A DNA stretch of 50,643 nt, from NCBI GenBank assembly GCA_026386845.1, contig JAPLMW010000096.1, forward strand, positions 1 through 50,643, written 5' to 3'. Positions 36,457 to 41,876 of this stretch are shown here, in pieces. Position 1 is the first letter of the stretch, and every line of letters starts with the position of its first letter. This DNA comes from Phycisphaerae bacterium. GTDB taxonomy: Bacteria > Planctomycetota > Phycisphaerae > Sedimentisphaerales > UBA12454. A program made the position numbers and the translations under genes. The notes under the pieces are model-generated. The model was not told the DNA's origin. It did no database searches and saw only the letters and a list, made by a program, of their open reading frames with translations.

Positions 36457-37566
36457 CTATTTAATTTCGTGGCTTTGCAACAAGGAATAGATGTCAAACA
36501 TGTCTGACCCTACGCATCCGTCCTGCTTGATCCAGCGTTCATAATCCTGTTTTATGACACGGAACAAACCACCAGCACATTCAAGAACATTCCAAAACGA
36601 TATATTTACGGCCATTATTACCTTTTCTCTACCATACTGACGCACAAGTCCAGATAGTCTATTTCTGTTTTCTAGATTTCTATCACATGGTGAATGAACC
36701 ATTCCCGTTCCATATAAGAAAGCCTCAAATAGCTGCTTTACGGTACATCCCTGTAGTAAATGGAAGAAACCCGGCTCGCTATCTATAATCTGCTTAAAAT
36801 TGTTTAGACAATGATCAATCCAACTTTTTTTAGTAATGTTGCTGGAGTGCTCCTTGTATACTTCACAAGCTTTCTCCATTAGTTTATCAGATGCATATAG
36901 TTGCCTAAAAAGAATCAGGATTGCAGACATATTTTCTACTGTTGGAAAATCGCAATCAAGTGCCTCTGTTTTGTCTTTACGGTAGGTTGTTATTGAGGAT
37001 TTCTTTTGTGCCCAACTACTGCCCAAAATTAGCCTTACGACTTGTATAAAGTTGAAAAGCGTATTTGCTTTATCAATAGTCCACGTTTCTCTCGCAGATA
37101 TTGTACATGAACCAAGCTGAACGATACCCTCAACATCGAAAGTTATATAATTGCTGCCATGTGTAATTTGTATTATTTCTCGCATAGATATTTCGCGGCC
37201 TGTTTCATCCTCATAATACTCGCGATTGAGATTAACATTTTCGAACACGCTATGACGTTTTCCAACACTGTTTGCCTTCTTACTTATTTCCTCGACAGGC
37301 TTTTCTACAAACATACGACGGAATCGAAGCATCCTTTCATCTGGCTTAGTAGCACCTACACTGAAAGTTTCGCTCTTTGTCCACATTTCATTAGATTTTT
37401 GTTTTGGTGGAGCACTGGAAATTCCTAGTATATTCATTATCTCTATTTGCTCATTTTCTGAAGCTTTTGTCCAATCAAGTATATAATGGCGTGCCGAAAG
37501 CTGTCCTTTTAACTGACGATCGAAAGTTGAGATTGTCCAATGTACACATATGTCATCTACGTTCAT
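36457..37566 (-). CDS. Hypothetical protein, 369 residues, unknown
   Basis: I do not recognise a family. The protein is soluble in appearance, with no signal peptide or membrane helix. Residues about 100-200 look beta-rich (EDETGREISMREIIQITHG, GIVQLGSCTISARETWTI). The second half looks helical (MSAILILFRQLYASDKLMEKACEVY, GCTVKQLFEAFLYGTG, KVIMAVNISFWNVLECAGG). It is downstream of the restriction-modification genes on the same strand, so a defence or passenger role is possible but unproven. The base composition is more even than in the ribosomal genes. Confidence 0.7.
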   Translation of the reverse strand: MNVDDICVHWTISTFDRQLKGQLSARHYILDWTKASENEQIEIMNILGISSAPPKQKSNEMWTKSETFSVGATKPDERMLRFRRMFVEKPVEEISKKANSVGKRHSVFENVNLNREYYEDETGREISMREIIQITHGSNYITFDVEGIVQLGSCTISARETWTIDKANTLFNFIQVVRLILGSSWAQKKSSITTYRKDKTEALDCDFPTVENMSAILILFRQLYASDKLMEKACEVYKEHSSNITKKSWIDHCLNNFKQIIDSEPGFFHLLQGCTVKQLFEAFLYGTGMVHSPCDRNLENRNRLSGLVRQYGREKVIMAVNISFWNVLECAGGLFRVIKQDYERWIKQDGCVGSDMFDIYSLLQSHEIK

Positions 37567-37773: not shown

Positions 37774-38098
37774 TTATGCTAACTTGTAGGCGATTTGTTC
37801 TTCCAAAATATCTTTGACGGTAAGTGCAATAATGCTCTTGCCGGTCTTTTTGAAAAACGCCTGTATCTCGCTCATCGCATCAGATGAAAAATCGAACGAA
37901 ACAAAAAAGCCTTTTGTGCGGTCGTTGCGCATCATAGCCGCCTCAAAAGAATCTATGTCCGGTCTGCCAACCTTGTCCTTCTGCTTGACCTGAATAGGAC
38001 CTGCGCTTTATTGGGTCTGCCGCCAAGTGCAATAACGGCCCAGTTTTCAAATTCAAAGGGCGGGATTTTCTTTAAACTGTTTTTCACGTCCAAGTCAA
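37774..38098 (-). pseudogene. C-terminal remnant of a methylase-Mrr type restriction gene
   Basis: Two frames together give the end of the old gene. The first reads KKIPPFEFENWAVIALGGRP up to NKAQV near 38000. After an apparent internal deletion the other frame reads PIQVKQKDKVGRPDIDSFEA, a middle with FFVSFDFSSDA, and the end ILEEQIAYKLA with TAA at 37774-37776. In intact relatives this region is an Mrr-like nuclease domain with an Asp and a QxK motif. Here QVK is kept but the segment expected to hold the Asp is gone. It begins at the very 3' end of the EcoRI-like gene (38084). Confidence 0.8.
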
Positions 38099-38896
38099 TT
38101 CTTCAGACAAAACGGACAAAGAGGTTTCTGCAATTGCCACCATGATGCCCACCATCTCCTCACGTGTCCACTCCTCACTCCGAGCGTATATTGACGCAGC
38201 CTGAAGCATTATCTCCTTGTCGTCTACCTCTACAATGATGTTCTTACAGTGATTCTCGTTTATCTTCATGCAATAATTCGCCGCCGTAACTCGATCAATG
38301 CGATTCATATTACCCTTATCGTGGCCGATCGTCACCGCCCGCCCATCGGGCCGCAACACCTCGAATGTACTCGTTGCAAAATTGGAACCTTGAAGAAATA
38401 CAACGTATGGGAAATGAAACTCCCCAATCATCGCATTCCTTATTTCGTTGATATTCTTATGTACTCTTTCAATCGCATTTCCCGCAACCATCAAATCCTG
38501 ATCTTTATCTTTTCCCACCAGTATTCCGGCCTTTACATTCTCAACGTCCTTTCCTTGGTGCTTGGCTTCAGAAACAAGGATGATTCTCCAATTGCCCGAT
38601 TTATCCAAAACCGCTATCAATCCCCCATCCGGCTTGATGCTTGCCTCTTTCACAAAAAGGATCTCGCCAAGTCGCGCATCGATTGACTTCAACCTGCTAT
38701 TGATCTCGCTCTTTGCAATGAAATCCCGCATCTGAAACTTGAGTTCTGTATATGTCTTGACCAAAAGACTAAATGTGAGCGCACTTGCGTCCGCAACTGC
38801 ATCGTCATGTAATCTCGCCACTTCCCCGAAAATTTCTTTAGGACCGCCTCCGCGAATTTGTTGTTCCGTCAGTCGATTTGCTTGCCTCTTGCTCAT
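38084..38896 (-). CDS. EcoRI/RsrI-type restriction endonuclease
   Basis: The 270-residue protein follows EcoRI nearly end to end: SKRQANRLTEQ, FVKEASIKPDGG, VSEAKHQGKDVENV, DQDLMVAGNAIERVHKN, HFPYVVFLQGSNF and LTAANY-like residues. Catalytic Asp90, Glu110 and Lys112 match EcoRI Asp91, Glu111 and Lys113. Recognition residues corresponding to EcoRI Asn141, Glu144, Arg145, Arg200 and Arg203 are also kept. Val137 replaces EcoRI Ala138, a base-contact position. The expected target is GAATTC, cut by a homodimer. The start overlaps the end of the methyltransferase by 4 nt. No controller gene is seen. Confidence 0.93.
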   Translation of the reverse strand: MSKRQANRLTEQQIRGGGPKEIFGEVARLHDDAVADASALTFSLLVKTYTELKFQMRDFIAKSEINSRLKSIDARLGEILFVKEASIKPDGGLIAVLDKSGNWRIILVSEAKHQGKDVENVKAGILVGKDKDQDLMVAGNAIERVHKNINEIRNAMIGEFHFPYVVFLQGSNFATSTFEVLRPDGRAVTIGHDKGNMNRIDRVTAANYCMKINENHCKNIIVEVDDKEIMLQAASIYARSEEWTREEMVGIMVAIAETSLSVLSEELTWT

Positions 38897-39888
38897 ATGG
38901 ATAGCCTCGCTGTAGACATAGAAGGTACATGATCAGCAGATAGTGCAACACATCGCGCGTCACTTACCAGCTCTACAAATTTATTCACGTCGAGATCTTT
39001 GACGATTTCGTATGGCCGGTTAAAAAACGAAGGCGCCGAATTTTCCAAATGCAGCTTGAAATAGTCCACCGTACCTGCGGAAGAATCCACCAAGATGGAA
39101 TGGCGGCCTTCTTCAATGCAGACCCTCCCTGTAGTTCCTGATCCAGCGAAGAAATCGAGCACTAACGATCCTTCGTACGACAATGCCTTCACAAATCTCC
39201 TGACTATTTCTAGCGGTTTCTGTGTCGGATGGCCGACCCGTTCTTTTGAATTGGCATTCAGCCGGCTGATTTCCCATACATTTGTAGGATTCTTGCCCTT
39301 TTCGATACTAGCCGGGTTTAGTCGTTTGTCTCTTCTGTATAACCGTTTCGTCTCCTCGTCGAATGGTACGCGAACTGAATCCAAGTCGAAAAAGTATTGT
39401 TTTGTTTTCGCGAGCCATACTGCTTCCTCGTGTCGGTTTGCAAAGAATCGGTGTGCGCTCATTCCATTCTTGTAATGCCAGATGATAAGATTGACGAAGA
39501 GCAGGTCTGTATTGTGCCTTATGTGATGCATAAGTTCTAATAGATCTCCGTGTTTTAGATCTTGGTATTGAAATCCACCAAATATGACACAATTCCCAGT
39601 GTCAGAAAGAACCCGATATATTTGGTCAAGCCATGCTCTAGCCCAATCCAGATAATTGGTGAAACTGTCCCACACATCCATATCCAAATTGTATGGTGGG
39701 TCCACAATAATCAGTTGAATTGAGGAATCCGGAACTCTCTTAAGAAACGATACCGCATCTTCAATATAAACAGTGTGAAATGTTTTCTCGATGTGTTGTA
39801 TAGGTGCGGTACCGTTCGGCTTCTTGCCCATCCGATTGAGTCTATTAAGAGTCATGTGCCCGCTATTGAAATGTGACCTATTTGGCAT
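38893..39888 (-). CDS. DNA adenine methyltransferase, M.RsrI-like
   Basis: This protein should methylate an adenine in GAATTC to protect DNA from the downstream nuclease. Motif IV (DPPYNL, about 63-68) precedes motif I (DFFAGSGTTG, about 245-254), the beta-class order. ANRHEEAVWLAKTKQYFFDLDSVRVP and EKGKNPTNVW match M.RsrI closely. The ATG at 39888 (331 residues) is chosen because AAGGA lies 9 nt before it and MPNRSHFNSGH aligns with the M.RsrI start. An ATG at 39921 lacks a ribosome site. M.EcoRI belongs to a different class, so the system is RsrI-like. Confidence 0.93.
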   Translation of the reverse strand: MPNRSHFNSGHMTLNRLNRMGKKPNGTAPIQHIEKTFHTVYIEDAVSFLKRVPDSSIQLIIVDPPYNLDMDVWDSFTNYLDWARAWLDQIYRVLSDTGNCVIFGGFQYQDLKHGDLLELMHHIRHNTDLLFVNLIIWHYKNGMSAHRFFANRHEEAVWLAKTKQYFFDLDSVRVPFDEETKRLYRRDKRLNPASIEKGKNPTNVWEISRLNANSKERVGHPTQKPLEIVRRFVKALSYEGSLVLDFFAGSGTTGRVCIEEGRHSILVDSSAGTVDYFKLHLENSAPSFFNRPYEIVKDLDVNKFVELVSDARCVALSADHVPSMSTARLSI

Positions 39889-40045
39889 TTTAGGCATTCC
39901 TTTCAAATCTGGGGACACCATACTTATTTCTTTTCATTTTTAACCTCGTTTTGTGTATTAACTGACATTTTCCATATTTATCCTTTAGGGATTAAATGCT
40001 TGGATGCGCAACCAAGCTTTCCTTTTCAACATAATACCACAATCT

Positions 40046-40420
40046 TCATCTGATTAAAACAATCGTAAGCATTTTTTGCAAAATAATATCAGAACAGTCA
40101 AAATGGTAATAAAATGAGCCGGTTTTTTTCAGGACACGGTGGAGTTCGACGCAGCGGGGGCGCATAAATTCGATATAAGCCTGTGTTGAGGCGTGGCGGT
40201 CTTCGAATGCGCGTTTTTCCTTTGTCTCGCCCCAGAAGACCTCATAGTTGCGGTTGGAGTTAAAAGGCGGGTCGATATAAATAAGGTCAATGCTGTTTTC
40301 GGGCAGTTTTTTTAATTGTTCGAGGTTGTCGCCGCAGTAGATTACCCGTGTATCGAGCAGTGATGACGGCTTGCCTGCCTGCGATTGTTTCTTAGAATTC
40401 GATTCCTTCTTTTTTCTCAT
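40046..40420 (-). pseudogene. N-terminal remnant of an older DNA methylase (methylase-Mrr type)
   Basis: The 124 residues read as the front of an adenine/cytosine amino-methyltransferase: DTRVIYCGDNLEQLKKLPEN, then DLIYIDPPFNSNRNYEVFWG (motif IV DPPF), ending at RVLKKTGSFYYHFD. After that the sequence diverges and stops at 40046. Complete relatives run several hundred residues further and end in an Mrr-like nuclease domain, whose remains lie at 37774-38098. The RsrI-like pair fills the space between, so it most likely replaced the middle of this gene. Confidence 0.82.
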
Positions 40421-41306: not shown

Positions 41307-41876
41307 ATGTATTACAATGTTAATGTCAGAATTTATGTGCCTAACCTATTAAACAAATTGGGAATTATAATTTTACTTTGGCTGAGAAAAAAGATTTACG
41401 GTTATTCTTTCCGCAGAATCAAACTTACACAAAACAAGTTCGCAATCGTTGACCCGGAAGACTATGGGAAATTAAACAGGCACAAATGGTTTGCCAAAAA
41501 TGATAAAAACACCTACTACGCGGCAAGAATAGAGGGCGAAAGAAAAATATATATGCATCGACAAATCAAGCCGCCATTACCGGGCTTCGTCGTTGACCAT
41601 ATAAACCATAAAGGATTCGATAACCGAAAAGATAATCTTCAAGTCGTTACCATCGCGGAAAATAACTATAACAGCAGAAAGACAAGGAAAGAGACAAGCT
41701 CAAAATACAAGGGAGTAAGCAGATGCAAAAGGACCAATAAATGGCGAGCGGTTATATGCGTAAACGGATTAGATATGCACTTGGGCTACTACGACGAAGA
41801 AAACGAGGCGGCAAAGGCTTATGATGAGGCGGCGAAAAAATACAGGGGGGAATTCGCGTTTCTGAATTTTAATTAG
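41307..41876 (+). CDS. HNH endonuclease with AP2 DNA-binding domain (homing-type)
   Basis: The 189-residue protein has a basic, partly hydrophobic N-terminus (about 1-38) and an HNH core: KLTQNKFAIVDPEDYGKLNR, MHRQI, then VVDHINHKGFDNRKDNLQVV with His98, Asn100 and Asn106. A C-terminal AP2 domain follows (about 132-187, SSKYKGVSRCKRTNKWRAVI, then GYYDEENEAAKAYDEAAKKY). This HNH-AP2 pairing is typical of phage and mobile homing endonucleases. It stands free in an intergenic region. GGAGTTAAGTCA precedes the ATG. Confidence 0.88.
   Translation: MYYNVNVRIYVPNLLNKLGIIILLWLRKKIYGYSFRRIKLTQNKFAIVDPEDYGKLNRHKWFAKNDKNTYYAARIEGERKIYMHRQIKPPLPGFVVDHINHKGFDNRKDNLQVVTIAENNYNSRKTRKETSSKYKGVSRCKRTNKWRAVICVNGLDMHLGYYDEENEAAKAYDEAAKKYRGEFAFLNFN

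Follow-up and report, generated by a model that had tools for sequence, protein, structure and literature searches.

The window analysed here, a stretch of 50,643 nt from a Phycisphaerae bacterium, carries a complete restriction-modification (RM) pair lodged between the two ends of another restriction gene. In minus-strand order, the locus comprises an N-terminal methylase remnant, an M.RsrI-like methylase, an EcoRI-family nuclease, a C-terminal Mrr remnant, and a gene for a 369-aa protein, for which a Pfam search gave no match (Table 1). The original prediction, that the front of one methylase and the end of a matching methylase-Mrr gene flank the pair and that all parts share a strand, is borne out: the flanking pieces come from opposite ends of a single 520-aa family, at 85% identity, and not from unrelated genes or families, and both the methyltransferase and the nuclease between them are complete.

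Table 1. Features of the locus, given in minus-strand order.
Feature	Position	Strand	Evidence and remarks
HNH-AP2 homing-endonuclease-like gene beside the nest	41307..41876	+	PF00847 and PF13392
N-remnant of methylase-Mrr	40094..40420	-	Residues 1-108 of 520; tblastn 85%, E=1e-57; profile positions 6-115
Spacer lacking clear homology, ahead of the methylase	39922..40093	-	Contains a 20-nt stem-loop at 39998-40017
M.RsrI-like N6-adenine DNA methyltransferase	38893..39921	-	PDB 1eg2, E=4e-105; PF01555, E=1e-54
EcoRI-family restriction endonuclease, 270 aa	38084..38896	-	PF02963, E=6.6e-112; final codons and stop in remnant DNA
Mrr-linker remnant, ending in PNKAQV	37998..38111	-	tblastn 22/26 identical; profile positions 363-400, E=5.6e-12; DNA comparison
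C-terminal Mrr remnant, residues 447-520 and stop	37774..38001	-	tblastn 63/74 identical; frame shifted by a 91-nt deletion
369-aa protein gene	36457..37566	-	Likely partner in the ancestral module; 60% identity over 366 aa to a gene of G091 (L136)

The intact gene, for which a 520-aa copy (G006:C16, locus L137) served as reference, encodes a fusion of an N6/N4-type methylase with an Mrr nuclease domain. Alignment of the remnants to intact members of the family matched residues 1-108, 391-416, and 447-520 of this copy, at 85% identity. Family homology covers the first 109 codons of the N-remnant ORF (40046-40420), with 92 of 108 residues identical to the reference, and then stops; at the DNA level, similarity to intact copies runs out at about 40092. 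This piece retains the methylase arm, including DPPFNSNRNY. The stem-loop in the adjoining spacer (GCTTGG...CCAAGC), placed after the N-remnant and ahead of the methylase start, may help to control the RM pair.

The C side had been read as a single piece spanning 37774-38098. Its identity as a methylase-Mrr end stands, but it consists of two blocks in different frames, residues 391-416 at 38075-37998 and residues 447-520 at 37998-37777 by comparison with the reference copy, because a 91-nt deletion shifts the frame between them. The deletion removes residues 417-446 and with them the GDMGID segment, presumed to contain the Mrr catalytic Asp, in agreement with the predicted loss of that segment from the old nuclease. 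With residues about 109-380 absent as well, the remnant is no longer a complete protein. The nuclease stop codon, thought to lie within the first codons of the remnant, is indeed in remnant DNA, but the boundary had been misplaced. When the DNA is aligned with intact copies, the right junction falls within the final nuclease codons, where GAATTGACTTGGACGTGAAAAACAG in the window aligns to GATTTGCCGTGGAGTGAAAAACAG in L132, so that the terminal ELTWT and the stop are themselves remnant sequence; the profile match to the C-remnant extends to 38111, into the end of the nuclease ORF. Short repeats, proposed as something to look for at the junctions, proved absent, in that none in the window pairs the two; a transposon or a target duplication was rejected for want of terminal inverted repeats or duplicated sequence. 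Nor do the junctions bear any other molecular sign of how the exchange took place, which weighs against the account of the locus given below.

The cargo itself has the features of an intact pair. The nuclease covers positions 2-254 of the 257 in PF02963 and aligns end to end with EcoRI (E=9e-87), with conservation of the KPDGG, EAK (EAKHQGKD), and GNAIER segments, which in EcoRI hold the catalytic Asp, Glu, and Lys and, in GNAIER, the recognition segment. Its length of 270 aa compares with 267, 270, and 276 in relatives; a truncated nuclease was thus rejected, and the pair looks intact. The methylase probably starts at 39888 (MPNRSHFNSGH), as judged against M.RsrI and the relatives L128 and L129, and its gene shares 4 nt (ATGA) with that of the nuclease. 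The same pairing occurs in G332 (L128) and G122 (L129) at 59-66% identity, the nuclease being 62% identical to the former and 59% to the latter. No methylase-Mrr arms surround the EcoRI-like relatives in these two loci, in seven viral contigs (L204-L210), or on two plasmids, where the sole signal in the arm search was the methylase's own weak similarity; the idea that EcoRI cargo and arms travel together was therefore discarded.

Both EcoRI and RsrI cut G/AATTC (PMC4081073). On the strength of family membership, the window pair is predicted to be a normal type II system in which the methylase would protect GAATTC by adenine methylation and the nuclease would cut unmethylated GAATTC. The window shows no clear avoidance of the site (10 occurrences against 13.2 expected), a stretch of 50 kb not being informative on avoidance; activity of the pair accordingly stays a prediction, which counts against the account of the locus favored below. 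Unlike GAATTC, two other hexamers are strongly depleted over positions 1-50643, GTCGAC (1 seen versus 13.4 expected) and CTCGAG (1 versus 10.5), perhaps as the mark of another restriction system.

The history of the site can be approached through intact relatives. In G091:C6 (L136), an uninterrupted methylase-Mrr gene is followed directly by a homolog of the 369-aa gene, and this is likely the ancestral arrangement of the window locus, judging from gene order and similarity in a relative. It supports the proposal that one defence system was replaced by another, the uninterrupted copies compared being relatives at other sites and not a same-species genome at this exact site. In G004, the orthologous site, bordered by the same tRNA-Met and amidase-like genes, holds two PEP-CTERM-type genes and neither the old nor the new system. 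It was accordingly rejected as an ancestral site with methylase-Mrr, and the old system, too, was probably acquired. In the other relatives, this stretch is broken or rearranged. In the proposed sequence of events, a single methylase-Mrr gene with its 369-aa partner would have entered between tRNA-Met and the amidase-like gene. The core of the old gene, residues about 109-380 including the target-recognition region, would then have given way to a compact, same-strand EcoRI/RsrI-type pair, leaving two conserved arms as non-functional ends, the C arm without its catalytic segment. The same event has recurred across the family with different defence cargo.

Conservation within the family sets these arms apart. 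An alignment of 54 intact copies gives conservation of mostly 80-90% for the N arm (residues about 20-120) and 60-94% for the C arm, compared with only 8-50% for a variable core at residues about 140-290, presumed to be the target-recognition region; conserved arms around such a core may make the gene easy to swap. Outside the gene, DNA conservation extends about 45 nt upstream and ceases at the stop codon. Members of the family are numerous and frequently fragmentary, and some genomes have two or three copies. Fifteen IMG/VR contigs (L211-L225) carry intact or nearly intact copies, so the family may travel with viruses. Genes directly after intact copies, at overlapping or operon-like distance, are varied: FRG (L142, 2279-3088), GIY-YIG-RAMA (L132 and L084), the 369-aa family (L136), TIR (L155), and a 480-aa gene (L062). 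They are possible partner effectors. HNH-AP2 homologs lie near intact copies in G006 (L137), G075 (L133 and L135), and G053 (L143), on the same strand and 120 nt upstream in L137 and 225 nt upstream in L133; such genes are abundant in those genomes, and the closeness may be chance.

A search with both gene ends over 161 genomes of the order, 335 genomes of the class, and GTDB contigs, followed by inspection of the loci, identified 21 split copies including the window, defined as an N-fragment and a C-fragment of the family flanking other DNA on one contig. Nineteen belong to the class; the other two come from different phyla, one from a Vicinamibacteraceae MAG (L075) and one from a Verrucomicrobiota MAG (L070). 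Family searches of the cargo genes gave a wide range of identities. Besides the EcoRI/RsrI pair of the window, the cargo includes a Tsp45I RM system (L123), a type II nuclease with a methylase (L190), MTaX1-HNH genes (L197 and L201, with a methylase confirmed in L201), and a Dam-type methylase with a gene lacking a family match, on the opposite strand (L186). Elsewhere the cargo is DarT with DarG (L117), FRG/PDC-S15 (L120), a HipA-like PDC-M03A protein with HIRAN (L121), a HARE-HTH protein (L151), an AAA ATPase of the AriA/OLD kind (L185), Mrr (L187 and L198), DUF4145 (L188), or HNH (L191 and L193). That of L189 is decayed, that of L070 is an alpha/beta hydrolase and not defence, and the family search assigned none to the cargo of L184, L192, or L075.

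Single N-fragments are followed by a range of genes: BglII with MT-A70 (L039), BglII (L086), an Eco57I-like methylase with a DpnII-like gene (L119), a methylase with an MTaX1-HNH gene (L114), an ankyrin protein (L160), and, in L116 and L118, genes without a strong family assignment. Some loci are nested. The order in L155 (G396) is N-fragment, 316-aa gene, intact methylase-Mrr, TIR gene, C-fragment, and that in L062, from a Limisphaerales MAG of another phylum, is N-fragment, intact copy, 480-aa gene (without a strong family assignment), short C-fragment. Intact copies thus lie inside older remnants, and old copies seem to have been entered more than once. L141 and L195 are partly nested, with an intact copy, a gene, and then C-fragments. 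In L194, by comparison, the arms are joined by plain internal deletion, without cargo. In a collapsed remnant of G083 (L126, 4814-5137), an N-fragment is joined to part of the Mrr end and to the end of an FRG gene; in G069, of the same genus, an N-fragment stands beside a homologous endonuclease III-like gene (L122).

With replacement repeated in this way with different defence cargo, the family acts as a recurrent nest, and we hold with considerable confidence that the window locus records the replacement of a restriction system inside the old gene. The split loci have further regularities. In 19 of the 21, the N-fragment reaches no further than profile position 125 (P about 4e-8 against uniform breakpoints, with the loci treated as independent), and in all 21 the C-fragment begins at 290 or later (P about 2e-6). 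The breakpoints nevertheless vary widely (N ends at 45 to 131, C starts at 298 to 481), on which ground site-specific integration at a fixed recombination site was rejected. Of the 20 cases that could be read, 19 have the cargo on the old gene's strand (P about 4e-5), and the last cargo stop codon falls -27 to +80 nt from the C-fragment (median 16.5 nt, 18 measured loci). All these probabilities somewhat overstate significance, because some loci share a genome (L117 with L121; L190 with L191) and because detection of the variable core is difficult.

A control search used HsdM and its relatives. In the same 161 genomes, none of about 150 PF02384 rows had the N-cargo-C split, versus 6 of about 49 for methylase-Mrr (P=2e-4, though the PF02384 profile covers only part of those proteins). 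An identical search with an HsdM subfamily found no split among about 22 loci, which is not significant (P=0.17); the row counts are our own tallies. The matched control is too small to prove methylase-Mrr special. One HsdM locus does have part of the pattern: L179 (1898-4962) carries a 70-aa HsdM N-fragment followed directly, on the same strand, by a helicase-like and an ATPase-like gene, both named from their sequence by eye, and a small gene. The pattern is therefore not exclusive to the methylase-Mrr family, a point against the recurrent-nest account as a property of this family, and defence replacement of restriction genes is probably general, only more frequent or more visible here.

Replacement and nesting are plain from the anatomy of these loci; the core may have been exchanged either by recombination in the arms or by illegitimate insertion, the latter with loss of the core and subsequent selection for a functioning cargo in the same orientation. 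Independent illegitimate insertions followed by decay, in which non-essential, defence-rich DNA is entered repeatedly and methylase-Mrr is simply a common dead gene whose ends survive by chance, have somewhat less than an even chance of being correct. Insertion with loss of the core explains the varied breakpoints, and the abundance and fragmentary state of the family, the lack of a site-specific breakpoint, the occurrence of one cargo family at different breakpoints (Mrr in L187 and L198; BglII in L039 and L086), and the HsdM N-fragment with cargo in L179 all fit. Harder to reconcile are the avoidance of the variable core by breaks (on the assumptions of uniform breaks and independent loci), the close spacing of cargo stops to the C-remnant, and the lack of split HsdM copies in either control, the smaller of which is not significant. 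The strand bias also speaks against chance insertion, but would be explained by selection for expression from the old promoter.

Homologous recombination in the N and C arms, swapping the core as a target-recognition region or a defence module, is a respectable possibility that we nevertheless rate below even and slightly behind independent insertion. It would draw on the contrast between conserved arms and hypervariable core, the restriction of breakpoints to the arms, the nested intact copies (L155 and L062), and the two or three copies present in some genomes. Moving cassettes should leave loci that share both cargo and breakpoints, however, and no two do; the EcoRI-like relatives lack flanking arms, and arm recombination does not by itself account for the strand bias. 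A stronger form of the same idea is that methylase-Mrr is a portable landing gene, its arms exchanging compact defence modules between distant bacteria at any chromosomal site without a recombinase of its own. That proposal, in which the modules would include RM pairs, DarTG, TIR, Mrr, HipA-like kinases, ATPases, and other methylase-Mrr alleles, is speculative and on present evidence rather unlikely.

Cargo caught between tandem methylase-Mrr genes, with later loss of the 3' part of the first and the 5' part of the second, is improbable: the order intact gene, cargo, C-fragment does occur in L155, L195, and L141, but no locus was seen with two intact copies around cargo, and an N-fragment upstream of the intact copy in L155 and L062 fits nesting better. 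Mis-joined contigs are a very remote prospect even in a draft genome of 96 contigs that is probably a metagenome assembly, as the nuclease frame continues into the remnant and stops there and about 20 independent loci from other assemblies share this architecture.

The window pair resembles the EcoRI and RsrI type II systems in its adjacent, co-directional EcoRI-family nuclease and M.RsrI-like methylase; it differs in lying inside the remnant of another restriction gene, where the nuclease ends in remnant sequence. Exchange of defence modules between fixed borders has precedents. In the enterobacterial immigration control region (PMC12707154, citing Sibley and Raleigh 2004), alternative defence modules likewise take each other's place within fixed borders, there the conserved genes yjiA and yjiN; that region is one chromosomal site, whereas here the borders are a restriction gene's own ends, at different sites in many genomes. 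The streptococcal Dpn locus likewise hosts three alternative GATC restriction cassettes within one genus (PMC12707154), compared with many unrelated cargo types and several phyla here. RM units are also described (PMC3031569, citing Furuta 2010 and Nobusato 2000) as inserting with long target duplication and as linked to rearrangements; in the split loci, unlike in the insertions described there, the flanks are opposite gene ends with the middle missing and no duplicated target. In the literature consulted, mainly non-subscription, no report describes a restriction gene whose own ends border cargo at many sites.

Defence genes turn over quickly, and a view of system replacement at the base-pair scale is rare. 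In this single gene family, about 21 replacements can be read, with the ends of the old gene still in place and the new cargo tightly packed between them. The remnants could serve as bait for new defence genes, candidates being those in L184, L192, L118, and L116 and the 480-aa gene in L062. If the arms drive the exchange, the family would provide an integrase-free route for shuffling immune modules.
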